DNA of 24,276 nucleotides. It comes from a virus. Positions 1 to 10,832 of this stretch are shown here, piece by piece. The notes under the pieces were generated by a model that had not been told where the DNA came from, did no database searches, and saw only the letters and a list, made by a program, of their open reading frames with translations. How positions within the stretch are numbered: position 1 is the first letter of the stretch; the number at the start of each line of letters is the position of its first letter. The stretch spans positions 1-24,276 of the IMG/VR virus record IMGVR_UViG_3300023087_000099; one strand, given 5' to 3'. The position numbers and the translations under genes are program-made.

Positions 1-495
1 ATCTGATGAAAAAGCATCGATACGATAAAGGTAATAACAATGGTCGGCAGGAACTGAAAAATGAGATGCTTGATTTCTTCCATCACCAACTCTAATACCT
101 GCATACTTTTCTGTTTTACCAGCATTTTGTACTGTAATTAAACCAACATTTTCAATTCCACTTGTTAATATAACATCATTAATTCTTAAGAATGAATTAT
201 CTGTGACTACATCTCCACCACCAACAAGTGTGACTGTTTCTGTTAAAACATTCCAATTAGCATCTAAACCTTTAATTAATAAACTCTTGCCGTCGTCACT
301 ACCACTTGCTGATGTGACAGTTAATGGAATCGCGCTCGAAGGAAATAATAAATCAGTAGCAGCAAATTCCCACACTACTCTGAATGTTGTATCTGCAGCC
401 TCTTGATAACCAAAGATATTTTTTACTTCAGCACCTTTAATTAATCCACGTGATGCGTTTAAATATGTATCTTCAGTTGGATAATATTTAGCCAT
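1..495 (-). CDS. Virion structural protein, N-terminal part (runs off left edge)
   Basis: The ATG at 495 opens a frame of 165 codons with no stop before base 1, so the C-terminal part is missing. The N terminus (MAKYYPTEDTYLNASRGLIKG) is followed by beta-rich, Thr/Gly-rich sequence such as ISGLD-like 'IKGLDANWN' and 'ETVTLVGGG', with one Cys. This composition is typical of structural proteins in marine T4-like phages. The stop codon of the upstream 411-residue gene lies directly against this ATG, so the two are probably co-transcribed and translationally linked. Both would be read from the late promoter at 2750-2757, which fits a virion role. I cannot tell which virion part it belongs to. Confidence 0.7.
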   Translation of the reverse strand, partial: MAKYYPTEDTYLNASRGLIKGAEVKNIFGYQEAADTTFRVVWEFAATDLLFPSSAIPLTVTSASGSDDGKSLLIKGLDANWNVLTETVTLVGGGDVVTDNSFLRINDVILTSGIENVGLITVQNAGKTEKYAGIRVGDGRNQASHFSVPADHCYYLYRIDAFSSD

Positions 496-1731
496 TTACT
501 TTTGCCAGCCTTTAATGTATTCTGTTGAGAAATTTGCTTTACTGAATTCGAGACGATCAACAAGTTTCAATGAGTTTTTACCAAGGTGATCGATCGCAAC
601 AAATCCCTCCTGGCCAGTTGCTACAAACCCCGTTTTAGTTTTAAGTAACGTGGTTAAACCTTCAACAGTGTTAAGCTTTTCAATCACTATATGTTTTGCA
701 TCGACCAATAGATTATATAGGGTGAACACTTTCTCAAGTTCTCTTAGATTGCGCTTGGTAAAGATTTTAAGCGCTGCATCTCGATTTTTAATTTGTGCGT
801 CTTTCCCTCGTTGTGATTTTTTACTGTCGATTTGAGATTGATAAAACTCTTCAAGCTCACGTTGAAGTTCGATAACAAAGCCCGAAGCATCACCAATACG
901 TGAACCTTCGCGGACTTTCTTGTTAATAAAGACATTGAGCCTTGCATTAAGTGGATCAGCACTCAGGCTGTTCAACACTTTAGCGTTAATTGTTCTAAAC
1001 AATCTACCCGCCTGAGCAAGAAGCTCTGTGAATTCTGCTGTTTCTGTACCCGTGAATGTAGCTGTACCAGCCCTATCTTCGAATGTTGCGTCTACCGCCC
1101 AGACTGACGGGGTGGCTTGGAGACTTGGGACAATCGCCTTTCCAAAACTTGCTTGCATTGACTCAAAGTCTGATCCTCTGTACGTTGTGTGCCAAACCAC
1201 ACCGATTTTGGATCGTTTAATTTGTTTAGCGAGATCGCTTTTTGCTGGTATCGCATAAACAATCGTATTAGGATGGAAAGTAATATACGATTCTCCATCA
1301 ATAGTTTCCGTTTGTATATCTTCTGACGTATAGAGGAAATCACCTTGTATTACTCCTTCACTAATTCCAAGCTTTGAAAGCTCAGCAAGGGCTACCTTGA
1401 ACTTAGCGTTAAGGTCACCCGACAAATCATTATCAATCTCTGCATTCGTTTTATAAATTTTTGGAGTTTTATTGAATACACCTTTTTTAGCGACAAAGAA
1501 TTTACCGTCACTAGGATCAATACCCGCGAAGATGGCAGGTGCACCATCCCACTTTACAGTAATAGTCATTGGTGCCGAAGCATTACCAGACAGCATATCA
1601 CGAAGAGCACGTAAATAATTAATGACGTTTCGAGTTCCTTTTACTCCGCCATCAATAACCGCGTCTTCGAGATGCGTCATGTGCAGGTTTTTACCTGCCG
1701 CTTCTTCGAGATATTGCTTAAACTTAATCAT
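496..1731 (-). CDS. Nucleotidyltransferase/ligase-like protein with capsid-targeting-like N terminus
   Basis: 411 residues. Several short motifs appear in the order seen in covalent nucleotidyltransferases (DNA/RNA ligases): KWDGA at 60-64 (motif I, KxDG), FFVAKKG at 78-84 (like motif Ia), VIQGDFLY at 127-134 (like motif III), EGFVAI at 375-380 (like motif IV) and LKLVDR at 388-393 (like motif V). About 190 residues, partly helical and charged, separate the last two from the first three, which is longer than in small RNA ligases. I recall this as a protein family of unknown function in marine myophages. The ligase relationship is my inference. The first ten residues, MIKFKQYLEE, match the T4 internal-protein capsid-targeting pattern ending in LxE. 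Its ATG overlaps the upstream stop (ATGA at 1728-1731) and no good ribosome site is visible, so translation is probably coupled. Confidence 0.75.
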   Translation of the reverse strand: MIKFKQYLEEAAGKNLHMTHLEDAVIDGGVKGTRNVINYLRALRDMLSGNASAPMTITVKWDGAPAIFAGIDPSDGKFFVAKKGVFNKTPKIYKTNAEIDNDLSGDLNAKFKVALAELSKLGISEGVIQGDFLYTSEDIQTETIDGESYITFHPNTIVYAIPAKSDLAKQIKRSKIGVVWHTTYRGSDFESMQASFGKAIVPSLQATPSVWAVDATFEDRAGTATFTGTETAEFTELLAQAGRLFRTINAKVLNSLSADPLNARLNVFINKKVREGSRIGDASGFVIELQRELEEFYQSQIDSKKSQRGKDAQIKNRDAALKIFTKRNLRELEKVFTLYNLLVDAKHIVIEKLNTVEGLTTLLKTKTGFVATGQEGFVAIDHLGKNSLKLVDRLEFSKANFSTEYIKGWQK

Positions 1732-2717
1732 ATGAGTTTCGCTGTTTTAGCCGCCTTTGCTCGTGGGAATACACCAATACGCGCGTTCTCAATAAATTCA
1801 CCGGCGACTCGAGCACCTCTGTCACCAGTATAGCGTGCATAATAGATAGGCTCATATCCACCTTCATCGAGTGGATCACCGTTCGTTCCTTTGTGAGAAG
1901 AAACAATTTCATAAACGGCGTTGCCCGGAAGCTTCTTCAGCTTCATCGAGCCCTGATGGAATTCGTCAACATTCTCGTGGCCGGGTTCTGTTCCATAAGA
2001 TGTTCCATATACTGACATGTTAATAATTGATAAATCATTACATGGACGATAAACAGAAACACCGCGATCTAAACCATTTGGATACAATGCTTTCAAATCT
2101 TTTACAAACTGCTGTACTTCTGCGTTATCTTTAAATGCGGAGTCAGAAAGACCACCGTACTGCTGGAATTGAGTAGGCTTGGTCCCATCTTTATGAGAAA
2201 GCCAAGCAACTTCTTTACCCTTCGAGTCGATAATCGAGAAATCAGACTTTGGTGCACGCCTTCCCTTCTGAGGAGTTGAGATAATACCCATGCACTCGAC
2301 TTCTCTATTATTAATAGCAAGAGTAATGATAGGTTGATTTTCTGCAGCGAATGCTTTGTCGAGCTCTTTTGTAAAGTTTTTCAAATGAGCATCTTCGGCA
2401 GCCGTACCTGACCCAGCACCTTTACCACCAAACTCTGGTGTCTTTAAAAATTCTTTTGAATAATTTACGCGAGTAGATCGACGAGTAGAAACATCGGTTG
2501 CTTTGAAAGTATCTTTATAGCCACGCTTCTGCATGCCCTGTTCGATGTCATCAATATGTGTTTTGTCAATAACAACGGCGCCCTTCTTAGTCATGAAGGG
2601 TTCACCGTCCTTTACCTTATTGATAAACACTTGAGTACGAGCTCCACCTCGCTTTGTGAGATCTGAGTGTTTGAGATCAACATAAAGCTCATTGAGGAAT
2701 TGCTTGAAGCGTATCAT
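1728..2717 (-). CDS. PD-(D/E)XK nuclease-like protein with capsid-targeting-like N terminus
   Basis: 329 residues, first gene after the late promoter at 2750-2757, with ribosome site AAGGGAAG just before the ATG. Residues 156-192 contain PKSDF (D159), then 14 residues later S174-H-K176-DG and FQQYGGLSD at 184-192. A Glu lies upstream at 109 in AAEDAHL. Asp followed by a short spacer and S/ExK is the layout of PD-(D/E)XK nucleases, so a DNA-cleaving role is plausible but inferred. The N terminus MIRFKQFLNE matches the T4 internal-protein leader MKTYQEFIAE position by position and ends in LxE, the T4 prohead-protease signal. The downstream 411-residue gene overlaps it by 4 bp. Alternative: a DNA-binding or toxin-like internal protein. 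Confidence 0.65.
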   Translation of the reverse strand: MIRFKQFLNELYVDLKHSDLTKRGGARTQVFINKVKDGEPFMTKKGAVVIDKTHIDDIEQGMQKRGYKDTFKATDVSTRRSTRVNYSKEFLKTPEFGGKGAGSGTAAEDAHLKNFTKELDKAFAAENQPIITLAINNREVECMGIISTPQKGRRAPKSDFSIIDSKGKEVAWLSHKDGTKPTQFQQYGGLSDSAFKDNAEVQQFVKDLKALYPNGLDRGVSVYRPCNDLSIINMSVYGTSYGTEPGHENVDEFHQGSMKLKKLPGNAVYEIVSSHKGTNGDPLDEGGYEPIYYARYTGDRGARVAGEFIENARIGVFPRAKAAKTAKLI

Positions 2718-2749
2718 TATCTTCCCTTGTTATAATTAGACTTCTTGCC

Positions 2750-5561: not shown

Positions 5562-6491
5562 TTATCCTCGTGCAAGTTCTTTAAAGATAGACAGGTCGTC
5601 GTCATCATCAGTAACAGAGTTATCTTCAGAAACAGCAGGAGCTTCTGCAAAGGTAGGCTCTGGAGCCACTTGAGCAAAAGATTTGCCTAGATCAAGATCA
5701 TCTGATTCTTCCATGGGTGAAGCCGCAACCGGTTCATCTGCGGTGAGATCAAGTACTCGGTAGAGCTTGGTCTTCAATTCAGCATATGATTTGAAGTTCT
5801 TAGGATCAATCACTTCATTAAGAGAGTGCTCTTGAGTCCATACGCTTTCCATTTCAGAGTCGTCATCAAAGAGAGGTGCCGGAGCATCAAACTCAGATTT
5901 GTCATAGTTGGGGTAACCTTCGAACTGTCGAATCTTCAGTCGGAAGTTTGCACCCTCCCATAGATCAAAAGGATTTACGGGATCTTCATCTTCGAAGCTA
6001 GGATTCATCAAATCATTCAGCTTGTCGAAAATCTTCTTGCCGAACTGATAAAGGAATACCTTGCCTTCGTTTTCGGGATTCGCAGAATCCTTTACAACGT
6101 AGATGTTGGAGATATACTTGAGTCGACGCTTCTGCTTACGAGCCTGTTCTTTGTCAGCCTCGACACCAGAATTCCAGAGTTTAGAGTTGAACTCAGATAC
6201 TGGATCATCTTGGTTGAGAGTGGTCAGAGAGTTTTCGATATACCAAAGACCAGTGGGGCCTTGGAAACCGTGATCCCAAATTCGCACGAACGGCATTTCT
6301 TCACCGGAAGGTGCGGGCAGGAAACGAATGATTGCGAAACCATTGCCAGCCTTGTCCTTCGTAGGCTTCCAAAATTTGCCTTCGTTTGGATCGGAGTAAG
6401 TCTTAGATGAGATTTTTTCAAGCTGCTGATTGAGCTTGTCGAGTGATTTACTGCGGTTCTTTTTGAGCGCTGCAAAATCTGTAGGTGCCAT
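5562..6491 (-). CDS. 32: Single-stranded DNA-binding protein, T4 gp32-like
   Basis: 309 residues from the ATG at 6491, chosen because AAGGAGA lies 7 nt upstream; the longer frame to 6539 has no such site. The N terminus LKKNRSKSLDKL is the basic cooperativity segment, the OB-fold core covers about 35-240, and the tail is Asp/Glu-rich (DDDDDLSIFKELARG), as needed to bind UvsX, gp59 and polymerase. The core has no Cys, so the zinc site of T4 gp32 is absent. Promoter 6618-6645 inside gene 59 gives gene 32 separate expression. A UUCG hairpin follows the stop. Confidence 0.95.
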   Translation of the reverse strand: MAPTDFAALKKNRSKSLDKLNQQLEKISSKTYSDPNEGKFWKPTKDKAGNGFAIIRFLPAPSGEEMPFVRIWDHGFQGPTGLWYIENSLTTLNQDDPVSEFNSKLWNSGVEADKEQARKQKRRLKYISNIYVVKDSANPENEGKVFLYQFGKKIFDKLNDLMNPSFEDEDPVNPFDLWEGANFRLKIRQFEGYPNYDKSEFDAPAPLFDDDSEMESVWTQEHSLNEVIDPKNFKSYAELKTKLYRVLDLTADEPVAASPMEESDDLDLGKSFAQVAPEPTFAEAPAVSEDNSVTDDDDDLSIFKELARG

Positions 6492-6535
6492 ATTAGTTTC
6501 TCCTTGTATAGCGTTATATGTGCGATGTATTATCA

Positions 6536-7138
6536 TCAACCAAAATGTTCGCGGACAATGTCTTTGAACTTCTTTTCATCAATTACTAGAAAGGGTCTGT
6601 ACTTTCTAGCAGTTCTTATTATATCACGCGAGACTATTTTGTCAACCAATTTTTTATCCCAATAATCAAAAATATTTGCAAAGTGAACCAGAAGAGTAAA
6701 AGTCTCTAATGAGATCTGCTTTCGCAAATATGTAGTCATCACAATTGGATGTTGGCCATCGTGTGATACAAAGTTTGCCTGATAACTATCATCAAGCAAT
6801 TTTAGATCGGATTTGAACGTATAGGAAAGTGATTCCTGCTTCTTTTTCCAATCTGTATACACCCGTTCACCTTCGTGTTCGAGTATATCTTTCACCCAAA
6901 TGTTAGGTTTGACTAACATATTGGATAGAATTCTATTTATATAGTCTTCTTTCTGTGCTAATTTCGCAAAGAAAAATGCATCATTTCGGGCTCTAAAGGA
7001 ATCCATAGATGCTCTGACCTTACCGTTATACTTATGGTAGTCATACCCATCTGTGGTAAAATGTTTCTTTAAAGCAAGATATTTTACATACGCCTCAAAT
7101 GAGGTCTCATTCACATAAGTCGGTGATGTTGGGCTCAT
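6536..7138 (-). CDS. 59: Helicase loader, T4 gp59-like
   Basis: 200 residues, mostly alpha-helical and basic, close to the 217 of T4 gp59. It lies between genes 33 and 32 as in T4. The motif FEAYVKYLALKKHF near the N terminus and the pattern of aromatic and basic residues fit gp59. It brings gp41 helicase onto gp32-coated forked DNA. It overlaps gene 33 by 32 bp, suggesting coupled translation, and its 3' part carries the promoter for gene 32. Identification rests on synteny plus general sequence character. Confidence 0.85.
   Translation of the reverse strand: MSPTSPTYVNETSFEAYVKYLALKKHFTTDGYDYHKYNGKVRASMDSFRARNDAFFFAKLAQKEDYINRILSNMLVKPNIWVKDILEHEGERVYTDWKKKQESLSYTFKSDLKLLDDSYQANFVSHDGQHPIVMTTYLRKQISLETFTLLVHFANIFDYWDKKLVDKIVSRDIIRTARKYRPFLVIDEKKFKDIVREHFG
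6618..6645 (-). promoter_or_regulatory. Sigma70 promoter inside gene 59 for gene 32 (TTGACA-16-TATAAT)
   Basis: Perfect -35 and -10 hexamers on the minus strand with a 16-bp spacer that ends in TGA, giving an extended -10. It lies near the 3' end of gene 59, about 127 bp before the gene 32 ATG. T4 gene 32 likewise has promoters within the upstream genes. Confidence 0.7.
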
Positions 7139-7346
7139 CTCGTTTCACCATTTTCAAATCTACTGCTTCAGTTCGTACTTTCTCTTTTAAGATAGAGGAT
7201 TTCTTAACGATATCTGCGATTGACTCAATCTCTAGGTTGTTCTTTTCTGCGTAATGAACTAGTGCATCAATGTAAGGTACACCATCAGCAATCATCTTAG
7301 ATATTTCGTGGTGAATTTTTTCGGGCGTCATTTTCACGACAGACAT
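7107..7346 (-). CDS. 33: Late transcription coactivator, T4 gp33-like
   Basis: 79 residues from the ATG at 7346. AGGAGG lies 5 nt upstream; an in-frame TTG at 7349 is less likely. The helical sequence (MTPEKIHHEI, YAEKNNLEIESIADIV, SSILKEKVRTEAVDLKMVK) resembles gp33 of marine T4-like phages. The gene order 33-59-32 is that of T4. gp33 bridges host RNA polymerase and the sliding clamp so that gp55 polymerase can fire TATAAATA promoters, of which this window has at least five. Shorter than T4 gp33 (112 residues). Confidence 0.8.
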   Translation of the reverse strand: MSVVKMTPEKIHHEISKMIADGVPYIDALVHYAEKNNLEIESIADIVKKSSILKEKVRTEAVDLKMVKRDEPNITDLCE

Positions 7347-7374
7347 CAAAACCTCCTATAGTAAATGAATGATT

Positions 7375-7403
7375 ATTATATCAGGTTTTATGGCATTTGT
7401 CAA
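7375..7403 (-). promoter_or_regulatory. Early sigma70 promoter for the 33-59-32-uvsX-41 operon
   Basis: The minus strand reads TTGACA, 17 bp ending in TGA, TATAAT: both hexamers perfect, plus an extended -10. The start would be near 7368, giving a leader of about 20 nt with AGGAGG before gene 33. The U-run of the terminator lies directly upstream. Confidence 0.9.
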
Positions 7404-7411
7404 CCATAAAA

Positions 7412-7439
7412 AACGGCCTGACCAAACGATCAGACCGTT
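7412..7439 (-). terminator. Intrinsic terminator closing the bilin/exported-protein operon
   Basis: On the minus strand AACGG-t-CTGA pairs with TCAG-g-CCGTT around an 8-nt loop, followed at once by a run of T. This is a rho-independent terminator for transcription arriving from the 7476-9999 operon. It keeps that transcript out of the replication operon. Confidence 0.85.
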
Positions 7440-7440
7440 C

Positions 7441-7469
7441 ATTATAATACATTACCCGTATTATGTCAA
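7441..7469 (-). promoter_or_regulatory. Second early promoter, initiating inside the terminator stem
   Basis: The minus strand reads TTGACA, 17 bp, TATAAT, all perfect. Predicted initiation is near 7434, inside the first arm of the terminator at 7412-7439, so its own RNA cannot form the full stem. It is in tandem with the promoter at 7375-7403. Confidence 0.8.
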
Positions 7470-8090: not shown

Positions 8091-8127
8091 ATTCCCAGTA
8101 GGAATAATGGGGGCATTGCACCCCCAT
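8091..8127 (-). terminator. Tandem hairpins after the 136-residue exported protein
   Basis: ATGGGGG pairs with CCCCCAT around 7 nt at 8107-8127, just after the stop. A second stem ATTCC/GGAAT lies at 8091-8105. The A/T-rich run after them is not a clean U-tract, so termination may be partial or the hairpins may protect the 3' end. Confidence 0.55.
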
Positions 8128-8131
8128 GAGT

Positions 8132-8542
8132 TTAGCTAGATGGGCATGCAGCTCCATCTGATGAGGCATCGTATTTCTCGTCACCACAACCATACTTGTT
8201 ATCGTTGTTAGTATCGCATCCTCGTTGCCAATATTGCATTGTGAAAGTATAACCTTCGCTCCACGGTGTGTATGCTTTACACCACTCGTGAGTACCGAAC
8301 GCTTCACCGTCAGTGCCATTATCTGGTGGCACGTAATCTACTTTTTCGGTTGGTACGATTTTTTCATATCGCATCGTTTTACCGTTATTGTAGACTGAAC
8401 GTCTCCACAACTCAGATCGCTTCGAAACGAAAACATATTCGTCTTCAGCAACCGTATATACATCACCATTATCGTATGTAATGGTATGCGCCAATGCACT
8501 CGTCGAAACAAGTGCCATGATAACTAGCAAAAATTGCTTCAT
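8132..8542 (-). CDS. Exported Cys-rich phage protein
   Basis: 136 residues from the ATG at 8542, chosen because AAGGAGATCTAAA lies just upstream and the frame then begins with a clear signal peptide (MKQFLLVIMALVSTSALA, predicted cut after 18). The longer frame to 8611 has no such features. The mature part contains HTITYDNGDVYTV, a Trp/Tyr-rich middle, four Cys (88, 109, 119, 133) and an Asp/Asn-rich stretch CDTNNDNKYGCGDE that could bind a divalent cation. I recall similar exported proteins in marine myophages but no known role. It directly follows the bilin reductase gene. Confidence 0.75.
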   Translation of the reverse strand: MKQFLLVIMALVSTSALAHTITYDNGDVYTVAEDEYVFVSKRSELWRRSVYNNGKTMRYEKIVPTEKVDYVPPDNGTDGEAFGTHEWCKAYTPWSEGYTFTMQYWQRGCDTNNDNKYGCGDEKYDASSDGAACPSS

Positions 8543-8574
8543 TTTAGATCTCCTTAAGTTAGTAGCTGCTACGG

Positions 8575-8597
8575 CATGCACCCCCTCGGGATGCATG
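8575..8597 (-). other. Hairpin between bilin reductase and exported protein genes
   Basis: On the minus strand CATGCA-CCC pairs with GGG-TGCATG with a small bulge. It lies in the 69-nt gap after the bilin reductase stop and is followed by a GTAGC/GCTAC inverted repeat. There is no U-run. It could be an RNA-processing or stability element that sets the ratio of the two products. Confidence 0.45.
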
Positions 8598-8611
8598 AAT
8601 AGAAACTTCAT

Positions 8612-9355
8612 TTAAGGATTGGGATTGTAAAAAGTGCCTTGATCAACTGGATATAGCTTTACCTCTTCGAATAAAACGTCTTCTACATACTGCTTAATTT
8701 CTTCTTCACCCAATTTCATGGCCTTCAAAGAATTCCAGAGCTGTTGGTTCTTCTTTTGATTGATACAGTATCTATTGTGACTTTCCATACGATCCTCGCC
8801 CAACCAAAATTGTTGGTGTTCAATCTGTTCAAGATAATAATGGATCAATCTTATTGCAGTATCACAAAACTGCTCTGTCTCTTCACCCTCACGAACGTTT
8901 CCTGCTGCAACCATATGTGGAGAGAAAATTTCTTTTGCCCATTCAGGCAATTCCCTTTCTGTTTTCCACTCCAAGTCTCTGGTCGCAAGACCAAATGTAG
9001 TAATGATGGGGTGTGTTTCGTCGGATACTGGAGAGAAATCGAAAAATGAACCGCTGATCTTATTAGGTCCGGCCACAACATCCAATCCCAAGATCGGATA
9101 ATGGAATGATGTGCCGGGAAAGATATTAATGTGCATCAACCAAAGTTTTGGTTTACCCTCAATAGGCTCAATGATTTTCAAGTGTGCCTTACGAACGGGG
9201 CCAGATTGCCAAAACAGATCTGTCCAACCTTCGAATTCGTGTATGTGTTTTTCATTATCAAAGCGCTCCATGTGCTTATCAAATATCTCAATGATATCAG
9301 TAGACAGTTTGCGCAAACGATTCAGTAGGGGTGTGTCCATAATATATTCAGCCAT
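8612..9355 (-). CDS. pcyX: Ferredoxin-dependent bilin reductase (PcyX/PcyA/PebS family)
   Basis: 247 residues, the normal family length. Diagnostic blocks are FRK-like VRKAHLKII (54-62), LMHINIFPG (73-81), YPILGLDVV (86-94), SGSFFDFSPV (101-110) and, near the C terminus, RYCINQKKN (195-203) and VEDVLFEE (224-231). It reduces biliverdin IXalpha with electrons from ferredoxin. By alignment by eye with PcyA, the catalytic His (H75) and Asp (D106) are kept, the Glu76 position is K60, and the late Asp of PebS (LFD) is E230. Phage enzymes PebS and PcyX make phycoerythrobilin; the PcyX-like assignment reflects the non-cyanophage context and is inference. It begins 3 bp after the heme oxygenase stop, in the same late operon, so substrate is supplied by the neighbour. 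Confidence 0.88.
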   Translation of the reverse strand: MAEYIMDTPLLNRLRKLSTDIIEIFDKHMERFDNEKHIHEFEGWTDLFWQSGPVRKAHLKIIEPIEGKPKLWLMHINIFPGTSFHYPILGLDVVAGPNKISGSFFDFSPVSDETHPIITTFGLATRDLEWKTERELPEWAKEIFSPHMVAAGNVREGEETEQFCDTAIRLIHYYLEQIEHQQFWLGEDRMESHNRYCINQKKNQQLWNSLKAMKLGEEEIKQYVEDVLFEEVKLYPVDQGTFYNPNP

Positions 9356-9358
9356 TAA

Positions 9359-9904
9359 TTACTCGTTATTAAATAGTGTGTCCAATTCTTCAAACAGTTT
9401 TGTTGCGTATTGAAAACAAATAATTGCTTCATCTACCATACCATCATAAAGCAATTCACGAATGCCAGAGATTAACTCTCTCCTGTTTTCAAATTCGTAC
9501 ATGGTACCAGAACCAGGTACCCTCTTCTTAATTATCTGGCCACCGTGCATATCACCGAAGTGTCGTACATAAAGGTGTGCTAGGAGGTCGTCATTGTCCT
9601 CTAGTGAAAGGATATGGTCGATATATTCATCTACGGATCTGAGGTTTTCAGTGATCCATGGTAGATTATACTCTTCTTCTAGTTCACATAAATCTGATAA
9701 TATCTTATCTGCACGGAATACACCACGAAGATCCTGTGCCAGGTGAACTCTTTCTTCAAGGGTTTGATATATCTCATACTGCGACTTTAAATAGTATTGA
9801 TACTCGACCGGAGAGATATCACCACTTATTAGTTTGCCAGCAAATTTGGATTGCTCTGCCATATCGTGGTGTTTTTGAGTTAATTCTTTTAGACTAGATG
9901 CCAT
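9359..9904 (-). CDS. ho1: Heme oxygenase (biliverdin-forming)
   Basis: 181 residues from the ATG at 9904, chosen because GAGGAG lies 4 nt upstream; the longer frame to 9967 would need TTG and reads through the leader hairpins. The proximal heme ligand is H13 in KHHDMAEQSKF (HxxAE pattern). The distal helix is RHFGDMHGGQIIKK at 114-127 (GDxxGG at 117-122). It opens heme to biliverdin, CO and Fe2+ using reduced ferredoxin. It is shorter than plant or cyanobacterial enzymes (about 240) but normal for phage versions. It is first in the operon with the bilin reductase, read from the late promoter 9992-9999. Confidence 0.92.
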   Translation of the reverse strand: MASSLKELTQKHHDMAEQSKFAGKLISGDISPVEYQYYLKSQYEIYQTLEERVHLAQDLRGVFRADKILSDLCELEEEYNLPWITENLRSVDEYIDHILSLEDNDDLLAHLYVRHFGDMHGGQIIKKRVPGSGTMYEFENRRELISGIRELLYDGMVDEAIICFQYATKLFEELDTLFNNE

Positions 9905-9922
9905 ACGACTCCTCATAATAAG

Positions 9923-9983
9923 TTGGTGCCCCTGTTCGGTAGCAGGGCTGGGGCCACACCCTGTCAAGGCTGCGACTGCCTTG
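9923..9983 (-). promoter_or_regulatory. Structured 5' leader of the heme oxygenase-bilin reductase mRNA
   Basis: Two G/C-rich hairpins lie between the late promoter and the ATG: CAAGGC/GCCTTG around 7 nt (9965-9983), and a longer one with CCCTG/CAGGG (9930-9947) inside outer GGTG/CACC pairing (9925-9960). GCCCC/GGGGC allows an alternative fold. There is no U-run. Function unknown; a translational control or stability element is possible. Confidence 0.5.
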
Positions 9984-9991
9984 AGTGAATT

Positions 9992-9999
9992 TATTTATA
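9992..9999 (-). promoter_or_regulatory. T4-type late promoter for the bilin operon
   Basis: Perfect TATAAATA on the minus strand, about 88 bp upstream of the heme oxygenase ATG. It shares two bases with the plus-strand late box at 9998-10005. Confidence 0.8.
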
Positions 10000-10005
10000 T
10001 AAATA
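9998..10005 (+). promoter_or_regulatory. T4-type late promoter for the lipase operon
   Basis: Perfect TATAAATA on the plus strand, 29 bp upstream of the lipase ATG. With the minus-strand box it forms the 14-bp palindrome TATTTATATAAATA at 9992-10005. Confidence 0.8.
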
Positions 10006-10034: not shown

Positions 10035-10832
10035 ATGATGCTCAATGAGCTAGCCAAACAAGATAGAGAGCGATCTCAGGTGTTGGAATCTGGGAAGATA
10101 CACGCAGTATTGGCCGCAACGGCATATGAAGATCCTACACTAGCAAAACCAATTTATAAGTCTATGGGTTTCACCGGACTCAAGTTCTTTGAGCATGATG
10201 GTGCCCAGGCTTATGCAGTTTGGAACAAAGAACATATTGTTCTTTGCTTTCGAGGCACGGAGCCAACTGAGATCAGTGATCTAAAAGCTGATCTTAATGC
10301 TTGGCCGGATCGTGGAGAAGTTGGGGGACTTGTTCACAATGGCTTCCAAAACGAGGTAGAGAAAATCTGGAAGGATGTTCTCAAGACGATTGATTCTAAA
10401 TCTCATGCCTCAAAAAAGCTGACCATGTGTGGCCATTCGCTCGGAGGGGCAATGGCTACCGTGGCAGCGTCCAGACAAAAAGATAGAGTTCATTCTCTCT
10501 ATACATTTGGTTCACCCCGTGTTGGTAATAAAGAATTTGTCAACGCATTTAGTGATGTTAAACATTATAGGTTCGTGAATAACAACGACATCGTTCCTAC
10601 AGTTCCGTTCGCATGGATGGGTTATCGACATCATGGTGAATGCATGTATTTCAATTATAAGGGTTACCTGAAAAAATTTACTTACTGGGAAGACTTCATT
10701 GACGGTTGGAAAGGTAAGTGGAGAGCCTTACAGAAAGGTCAGGTATTTGACGGATTGTATGATCACGGTGCTAACTACTACTGTTTATATACAGCGAGCA
10801 ACTATGATCAAGAGAAAGATACAAAAGGCTAG
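10035..10832 (+). CDS. Class 3 lipase (alpha/beta hydrolase)
   Basis: 265 residues. The nucleophile elbow GHSLGGA is at 133-139 with Ser135, TFGSPRVGN at 157-165 is the typical following strand, Asp185 lies in NNNDIVPTVPF and His199 or His200 in YRHHGECMYF completes the triad. The oxyanion-strand motif VLCFRGTE (69-76) is also class 3. It would hydrolyse acyl esters of glycerolipids. There is no signal peptide, so it acts in the cytoplasm, at the inner membrane, or is released on lysis. It is first in a late operon with small membrane proteins. GGAG precedes the ATG. A role in membrane breakdown or lipid recycling is inference. Confidence 0.9.
   Translation: MMLNELAKQDRERSQVLESGKIHAVLAATAYEDPTLAKPIYKSMGFTGLKFFEHDGAQAYAVWNKEHIVLCFRGTEPTEISDLKADLNAWPDRGEVGGLVHNGFQNEVEKIWKDVLKTIDSKSHASKKLTMCGHSLGGAMATVAASRQKDRVHSLYTFGSPRVGNKEFVNAFSDVKHYRFVNNNDIVPTVPFAWMGYRHHGECMYFNYKGYLKKFTYWEDFIDGWKGKWRALQKGQVFDGLYDHGANYYCLYTASNYDQEKDTKG

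Follow-up and report, generated by a model that had tools for sequence, protein, structure and literature searches.

A Lysine-Type Bilin Reductase Paired with Heme Oxygenase behind a Predicted Late Promoter in a T4-Like Phage

Introduction

Phages that encode a heme oxygenase (HO) and a ferredoxin-dependent bilin reductase (FDBR), in some cases together with a 5-aminolevulinate synthase (AlaS), have been described from marine and freshwater habitats and for non-cyanobacterial hosts, and the co-occurrence of the three genes on phage contigs was called "still enigmatic" (Wegner et al., 2024, PMC11480375). PcyX is known as a phage enzyme that produces phycoerythrobilin (PMC13197396, PMC6755814, PMC13193486), and an Asp at position 55 was called PcyX-specific (PMC11480375). 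Glu76 was reported as a PcyA-specific residue that is needed for the 18-vinyl reduction leading to phycocyanobilin (PMC10151467), and the relations between structure and function in FDBRs were described as not reliably predictable (PMC13193486). Here we analyze the adjacent HO and FDBR genes in a viral DNA stretch of 24,276 nucleotides (IMG/VR record IMGVR_UViG_3300023087_000099, positions 1 to 24,276), the whole of which is referred to as the window.

A sequence-only reading of the window had proposed a two-step heme-to-bilin pathway in a late operon of a phage. The pair and its place in a T4-like phage hold, while its non-cyanobacterial setting is no novelty, as such a setting is already in print (PMC11480375; Pelagibacter phage Mosig). 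The general idea of the cassette is already known; what is new is a clade of reductases with a Lys at one active-site position (Lys-type), the conserved late promoter and locus of this clade, and its pairing with AlaS, serine hydroxymethyltransferase (SHMT) and an alternative oxidase (AOX). Judging from the sequences, we hold it moderately probable that the window carries a working late heme-to-bilin cassette of a T4-like phage with a probable alphaproteobacterial host, and that the reduced bilin is the purpose of this cassette.

The Heme Oxygenase and Bilin Reductase Genes

Both genes lie on the minus strand, with the HO gene (9359..9967) first and the FDBR gene (8612..9355; 247 aa) following after a gap of 3 bp (9356-9358). 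HO matches the Pfam family Heme_oxygenase (PF01126; 3.9e-19, 69.7 bits, cut-off 23) as well as a PDB sequence, and it contains an H..AE motif with the proximal His and a GDMHGG motif of the GDxxGG form, which we take to be the catalytic and defining motifs of a biliverdin-producing HO. Its true start is probably the ATG at 9904, which has the Shine-Dalgarno sequence GAGGAG, instead of the listed TTG at 9967. FDBR matches the Pfam family Fe_bilin_red (PF05996) with 2.6e-18 and 66.9 bits at a curated cut-off of 31, and a PDB sequence search gives PcyX (5owg, 2.3e-40) as its top solved relative, with PcyA at 6e-14 or weaker. It scores 95 bits against the NCBIfam PcyA equivalog NF002760, whose cut-off is 206. 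The AlphaFold model of FDBR (pLDDT 88.7) superimposes on PcyA 4qcd with a Z of 24.4 and 2.4 Å over 215 residues, and on PcyX 5owg with a Z of 22.5 and 1.7 Å over 177 residues, the PcyX chain in the library being 181 residues long. The adjacent pair with conserved motifs that the sequence-only reading had noticed is confirmed by the Pfam matches, the motifs, the short gap and this fold match.

The ratio of nonsynonymous to synonymous changes (pN/pS) against the three nearest relatives is 0.17-0.21 for FDBR and 0.10-0.18 for HO, and 0.35-0.41 against two farther relatives that were tried, all of these being rough values with synonymous sites near saturation. In both genes the family profile, the catalytic residues and the purifying selection appear to be those of active enzymes, and for FDBR this is also indicated by the predicted fold.

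The Lysine-Type Reductase

FDBRs were gathered from viral contigs with five queries of at most 80 loci each, a sample in which intermediate types may be missing, and three phage records (Mosig, P-SSM4 and ACG-2014j) and one bacterial bin contig were added. At least 313 loci with an FDBR open reading frame (ORF) were collected in this way, 216 with Lys, 82 with Asp and 14 with Glu at the position in question and one that is broken. The 190 sequences that are distinct over their last 180 residues were aligned with two solved sequences to give 192 rows. In the column of PcyA Glu76 and PcyX Asp55, Lys is found in 119 rows (the window included), Asp in 63 and Glu in 9, and a single broken-frame row has a gap; the Lys position was assigned by sequence alignment, and the Asp55 column was set by our own count with an 8-residue construct offset. 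The window FDBR carries K60 at this position, where PcyA has its Glu76, and Lys is shared by 119/119 rows of its type, as against Asp in 63/63 rows on the PcyX side. Solved PcyX and the Mosig enzyme are among the Asp rows, and the Synechocystis and cyanophage PcyA are among the Glu rows. The equivalents of PcyA His88 and Asp105, H75 and D92 in the window FDBR, are kept in all 191 unbroken rows (119 Lys, 63 Asp, 9 Glu). Fourteen positions, position 76 included, are fixed differently (≥97%) in the Lys and Asp rows. Ledermann and co-workers, in their 2018 work on the PcyX structure, reportedly found an Asp-His pair to be critical and the Asp at the present position to be non-catalytic, which fits with an active Lys enzyme. 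In one relative the FDBR is split over two ORFs (L064:2551-3246), which is maybe a pseudogene or a sequencing error.

For the tree we used 51 rows, with PebS, a distant bacterial FDBR, the bin row and a long Lys row (L228) dropped and the Lys rows thinned to 35. The Asp and Glu rows form separate groups with a support of 100/100 each, and the Asp (PcyX) branch keeps 100/99 once the trait column is removed. A branch whose support is 90/76 (84/70 without the trait column) separates the Lys rows from the others, and the PcyX rows stand on their own branch, with the window FDBR outside it. A first quick tree that included PebS and the distant bacterial FDBR as far outgroups showed extreme branch lengths and placed PcyX inside the Lys rows with a support of 12 to 46. 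From these sequences the position of the Lys-type reductase outside PcyX can be regarded as firm and its strict monophyly as likely, and the Lys-type FDBRs appear to be nearer to PcyX than to cyanobacterial PcyA. Phycoerythrobilin cannot be assumed as the product because of the Lys at PcyA position 76 together with the placement outside the PcyX branch. No report of a Lys-type FDBR was found in the literature, in a search that did not extend to supplements and most subscription papers.

As a first guess, with about even chances, the predicted product of the Lys-type enzyme is phycoerythrobilin, since Glu76 is reported to be needed for phycocyanobilin and PcyX is the nearest characterized relative. 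A product of the two-electron type, such as phytochromobilin or dihydrobiliverdin, is a tentative second candidate. Another option is phycocyanobilin, the product of the freshwater phage CB_2 enzyme, in which the PcyX Asp is missing and whose described position is intermediate between PcyX and PcyA (Wegner et al., 2024, PMC11480375). The Lys-type clade is likewise found outside PcyX while being closer to PcyX than to the PcyA of cyanobacteria, and CB_2 could itself be Lys-type; its FDBR did not turn up in the collections searched. Yet Glu76, which is reported to be necessary for 18-vinyl reduction (PMC10151467), is missing in 119/119 Lys rows, and we regard phycocyanobilin as a rather improbable product.

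Predicted Late Transcription of the Pair

A T4-type late promoter, TATAAATA, is located at 9992..9999 on the minus strand, 83 bp before the HO ATG at 9904. Of 100 unique Lys-type HO leaders, 78 contain the same motif no more than 200 bp ahead of the gene, mostly 30-60 bp before the start used; among random windows taken from these loci the share is 115 of 4000 (2.9%), and among shuffled leaders it is 2.3%. Only 3 of 49 PcyX-type HO leaders contain it. The earlier observation of a perfect T4 late promoter ahead of the pair is upheld, and the placement of the motif is no chance occurrence. Further evidence comes from a 169,742-bp IMG/VR contig (G001), which belongs to this phage or a very near relative and covers window positions 2749-24276 at 99.2-99.98% identity and 489-1733 at 86%. 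In this contig TATAAATA occurs 20 times against 12 expected, with a co-oriented ORF within 148 bp at 18 sites, and the genes behind it include gp8, gp13, gp18, gp21, gp22, gp23, gp48 and uvsW, while gp33, gp32 and gp45 are preceded by perfect sigma-70 promoters instead. Homologues of gp55, gp33 and gp45 are encoded in G001, so that a T4-type late transcription unit, with the motif before the gene and these three genes in the genome, is present at the sequence level.

Two perfect sigma-70 promoters (TTGACA-17-TATAAT; 7375..7469, minus strand) lie between FDBR and gp33 and would separate gp33-gp59-gp32 from the late HO-FDBR transcript; in total, three such promoters with 12/12 matches are found ahead of gp33 and gp32 (7375-7469 and 6618-6645, minus strand). 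Because TATAAATA is enriched, late genes share it and sigma-70 promoters precede gp33, gp32 and gp45, HO-FDBR looks like a late unit under its own gp55/gp33-type promoter, apart from the downstream gp33-gp59-gp32, and its predicted late expression is well supported. A late promoter for HO-FDBR cassettes is not mentioned in the portion of the published text that was covered. The GC-rich HO leader was also considered as a riboswitch or other RNA element, and this was rejected: Rfam returned only tRNAs and sub-threshold hits on the strand opposite to those, and the folding energy is ordinary (z -0.70).

Gene Neighborhood and Host

HO is found upstream of FDBR on the same strand in 130/134 Lys-type loci with room for it and in 56/56 Asp-type loci, compared with 0/8 Glu-type loci. 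Downstream of the window pair and co-oriented with it is a gene for a gp33-like late co-activator (7107..7349, minus strand), with a homologue in 127/148 clade loci; its copy in G001 matches gp33 of phiM12 at 2e-9 and of Mosig at 2.3e-8 (phmmer). It is followed by the gp59 helicase loader (6536..7138, minus strand; PHROG 269, 7e-52), which is the anchor of the conserved neighborhood (135/148 clade loci, and 128/134 Lys-type loci having at least 1500 bp downstream), and by the gp32 single-strand binding protein (5562..6539, minus strand; PHROG 224, 8.9e-118; homologue in 120/148 clade loci). Within six genes of the Asp-type pair no gp59, gp33 or gp32 homologue was found (0/73 loci). Since gp33-gp59-gp32 follow the Lys-type pair and neck genes follow the Mosig pair, the two cassettes seem to hold fixed but different places in their genomes. 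A role in virion assembly, which the sequence-only reading had offered, finds no support here, as the window pair lies upstream of gp33-gp59-gp32-UvsX and away from structural genes. Iron supply for tail fibers was likewise rejected: none of the four longest fiber-like ORFs of G001 (1533-3350 aa) has an HxH iron-type motif.

On its other side, TATAAATA is one half of a perfect 14-bp palindrome, TATTTATATAAATA (9992..10005), which amounts to two overlapping divergent late promoters, one facing HO and the other facing a class 3 lipase gene (10035..10832, plus strand; Pfam Lipase_3, 2.1e-25). The palindrome is present in 7 clade loci, copies of one phage included, and a lipase homologue is near the pair in 41/148 clade loci. 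Directly 3' of FDBR, and possibly on the same transcript, a small protein with an apparent signal peptide is encoded (8132..8611, minus strand), which has no match in Pfam or PHROG and a homologue in only 7 clade loci. Window positions 1-2748 depart from the otherwise ~99% identical G001 (86% or no reported match) and form a variable region beside gp41. Elsewhere in G001, the stretch 61221-65805 (L089:1221-5805) encodes two TET-associated glycosyltransferases, an epimerase and a UDP-sugar dehydrogenase, which could mean DNA hypermodification, and at the right end (L094:5036-9582 = 165036-169582) a TonB-dependent receptor and a reprolysin-like lipoprotein gene after gp23 may be cargo or a chimeric join.

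The phage terminase is ~60% identical to those of Sinorhizobium phages, followed by that of a Pseudoalteromonas phage (55%), and among the 181 ORFs of G001 there are 56 with a match in the Sinorhizobium phage phiM12 and 60 with one in the Pelagibacter phage Mosig. It is likely from these similarities that the host of the T4-like phage is an alphaproteobacterium. A bacterial origin of the Lys-type genes was rejected. Profile A1 matched 1/394 Rhodobacteraceae genomes, the one hit being the bin at the center of that search, from which the sole bacterial-contig hit also comes; PF05996 matched 3/385 Alphaproteobacteria genomes, 2 of them over the cut-off and the Water_Bin34 bin among them. This Rhodobacteraceae bin, Water_Bin34 (L095; G009 contigs C105, C172 and C173), has three contigs with profile A1, of which the one that was typed is Lys-type. 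The three contigs are taken, short of proof, as phage DNA in the bin, which perhaps holds several phages and would then give a hint at host range. A plasmid search gave no hit.

Heme Supply and the Proposed Role of the Bilin

The window itself shows no other tetrapyrrole gene. In G001, AlaS (TIGR01821, 566 bits against a cut-off of 338.6) is located at 8092-9276, ~28.5 kb from HO-FDBR, which places this phage with the hemO-FDBR-alaS phages of Wegner et al. (2024). AlaS is above the cut-off in 9/26 Lys-type viral records, among them the two largest (169,742 and 221,447 bp); in three of the nine the match spans one or two stop codons, and a tenth record is cut by the contig end inside the gene. 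The same profile did not find AlaS in Mosig or P-SSM2. The AlaS gene of G001 overlaps a DUF454 gene (the pair at L086:7656-9357, minus strand), and DUF454 follows AlaS in 19/20 AlaS loci, several of them copies of one phage, the exception being a locus that ends just past AlaS. This pairing, which persists to ~40% DUF454 identity, suggests that DUF454 works with tetrapyrroles. A Pfam scan of 30 of the 181 G001 ORFs and ten window proteins, with further ORFs named by likeness to Mosig and phiM12, also found SHMT and, between nrdB and nrdA, AOX (PF01786, 1.3e-63; L086:10845-11423, minus strand). In two other AlaS phages (L363 and L369) AOX comes directly after AlaS.

These genes fit a mechanism in which AlaS, with SHMT acting through glycine, would raise 5-aminolevulinate, which host enzymes would turn into heme. 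Late in infection HO would open the heme to biliverdin, CO and Fe2+, and FDBR would reduce the biliverdin, drawing electrons from a ferredoxin or flavodoxin of the host. This reduced bilin would then be the aim, and the best guess for its target is a host bacteriophytochrome or another bilin-binding protein. Ferrochelatase spends one iron for each iron that HO returns, so that the flux from AlaS through heme to HO is iron-neutral and yields bilin and CO. As this flux gives no net iron, we favor the bilin as the purpose. With both ends of heme synthesis under phage control, bilin making is favored over iron salvage, perhaps alongside a clearing of heme during which the heme-free oxidase keeps up respiration.

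The same balance bears on iron release from heme, which had been put forward as a purpose and is now weakened, because AlaS is encoded by the same phage. HO could free host-heme iron for di-iron enzymes or particles of the phage, an idea discussed in print for such cassettes (PMC11480375), and the phage does have iron enzymes, namely a class I ribonucleotide reductase, AOX and a 2-oxoglutarate (2OG) oxygenase. However, the phage AlaS would drive heme synthesis and use up the iron that HO returns, a dedicated FDBR is unnecessary for freeing iron, and the HxH motif is not listed in the four longest fiber-like ORFs, all of which leaves iron salvage improbable.

The main rival to the bilin as purpose is heme clearance combined with a CO-resistant oxidase. 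AOX contains no heme and is resistant to CO, and HO is inhibited by its product biliverdin. Late HO may thus destroy heme and release CO, with FDBR draining biliverdin against product inhibition, AOX carrying respiration and the bilin being waste. The presence of AOX in the same phage, and near AlaS in 8/20 AlaS loci (at two different positions, several loci being copies of one phage), speaks for this, and the Lys at position 76 hints that a precise regiochemistry is perhaps unimportant. On the other hand, AOX is missing from 26/28 records searched, while HO precedes FDBR in 130/134 clade loci, and a phage AlaS would oppose the removal of heme. We consider this explanation unlikely, although less so than iron salvage.

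Several observations weigh against the favored reading of a working late bilin-making cassette. Seventeen of the 26 Lys-type records, though mostly fragments, have no AlaS over the cut-off, AOX occurs in only 2/28 records searched, and no bilin acceptor was found in the families searched. AlaS belongs to another module that lacks its own TATAAATA, the nearest one upstream on its strand being ~8.6 kb off, and for this reason entry to and exit from the pathway could operate at different times. In 64/136 Lys-type loci, 1-3 ORFs stand between HO and FDBR, counted mechanically at ≥50 aa and many of them perhaps spurious. Finally, GExxGG replaces GDxxGG in 59/132 clade HOs (e.g., L069:8467-9069 and L077:1309-1872), so that HO chemistry in the clade may vary; the window HO has GDMHGG.

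Support of host light harvesting, as in cyanobacterial phages, is a further option, and published work has put it forward for the HO and bilin reductases that phages bring into cyanobacteria (PMC11480375). No match to reaction-centre or phycobilisome/phycobiliprotein (PF00502) families was found in 26 Lys-type records, nor to the Fer2 ferredoxin family, the search not extending to other ferredoxin families and flavodoxin. As controls, both Photo_RC and Fer2 were detected in P-SSM2 and Fer2 also in Mosig, and PF00502 gave a score only in a control genome. As the 26 records are mostly fragments, only G001 and the 221-kb record carry much weight for these absences. The terminase nearest to Sinorhizobium phages and a reductase apart from cyanophage PcyA point away from light harvesting as well, P-SSM2 PebS being too distant even to pass the FDBR search, and we regard it as highly improbable. 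The absence of other visible photosynthesis genes, and of a ferredoxin in the window, had been noted before; both extend to G001 for the families named.

Tentatively, we suggest that the Lys type is a further kind of FDBR, phage-borne and frequent in public viral contigs, whose product or mechanism would be unlike that of PcyX and PcyA. Its phages may run the tetrapyrrole pathway from both ends, with SHMT and AlaS leading in and late HO and FDBR leading out, to a bilin whose target would be a host protein, and some of these phages might use an oxidase of their own to sustain respiration amid the CO from HO. A clade marked by one active-site residue and by a conserved late promoter and locus lends itself to simple assays, namely of the product of the Lys enzyme and of the effect of a Lys to Asp or Glu exchange, and the late promoter tells when to look in infected cells.

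Comparison with Known Systems

Bacterial pre-PcyA clusters (Rockwell et al., 2023, PMC10151467) resemble the Lys type in having active FDBRs that lack Glu76 in heterotrophs. In contrast, His88 is reported to be absent there and is kept in the Lys type, and no phycobiliprotein-type globin was found with PF00502 in the Lys-type records. The cyanophage systems with PebS or PcyA and HO are alike in that HO and FDBR are phage auxiliary metabolic genes. They differ in gene order, with HO and FDBR far apart in P-SSM2 and HO upstream in none of the 8 Glu-type loci, and P-SSM2 has psbA, a ferredoxin and an FDBR of a different clade.

The hemO-pcyA/X-valaS cassettes (Wegner et al., 2024, PMC11480375) also bring HO, FDBR and AlaS together in a single phage genome. 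Here, however, AlaS is ~28.5 kb off together with DUF454, AOX and SHMT, and the FDBR is Lys-type, whereas the marine sequences of that study were placed with pelagiphages and in PcyX.

The HO-PcyX cassette (PcyX_EBK42635, 5owg; Pelagibacter phage Mosig EXVC030M) differs from the Lys-type cassette in the Asp55 that stands in place of the Lys of all 119 rows and in its separate branch. In Mosig (MT647606.1) the pair is located before the neck genes gp13-14-15 and behind a gene run with four 2OG oxygenases and ferrochelatase, whereas the Lys-type pair is located before gp33-gp59-gp32, and Mosig has a Fer2 ferredoxin, unlike the 26 Lys-type records searched. Ferrochelatase is found five genes upstream of HO in Mosig, which has many 2OG-Fe(II) oxygenases. 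In other respects the two systems are alike: HO immediately precedes an FDBR that belongs to the PcyA/PcyX side and retains the catalytic His and Asp, and Mosig, too, combines T4-type genes with a non-cyanobacterial host.

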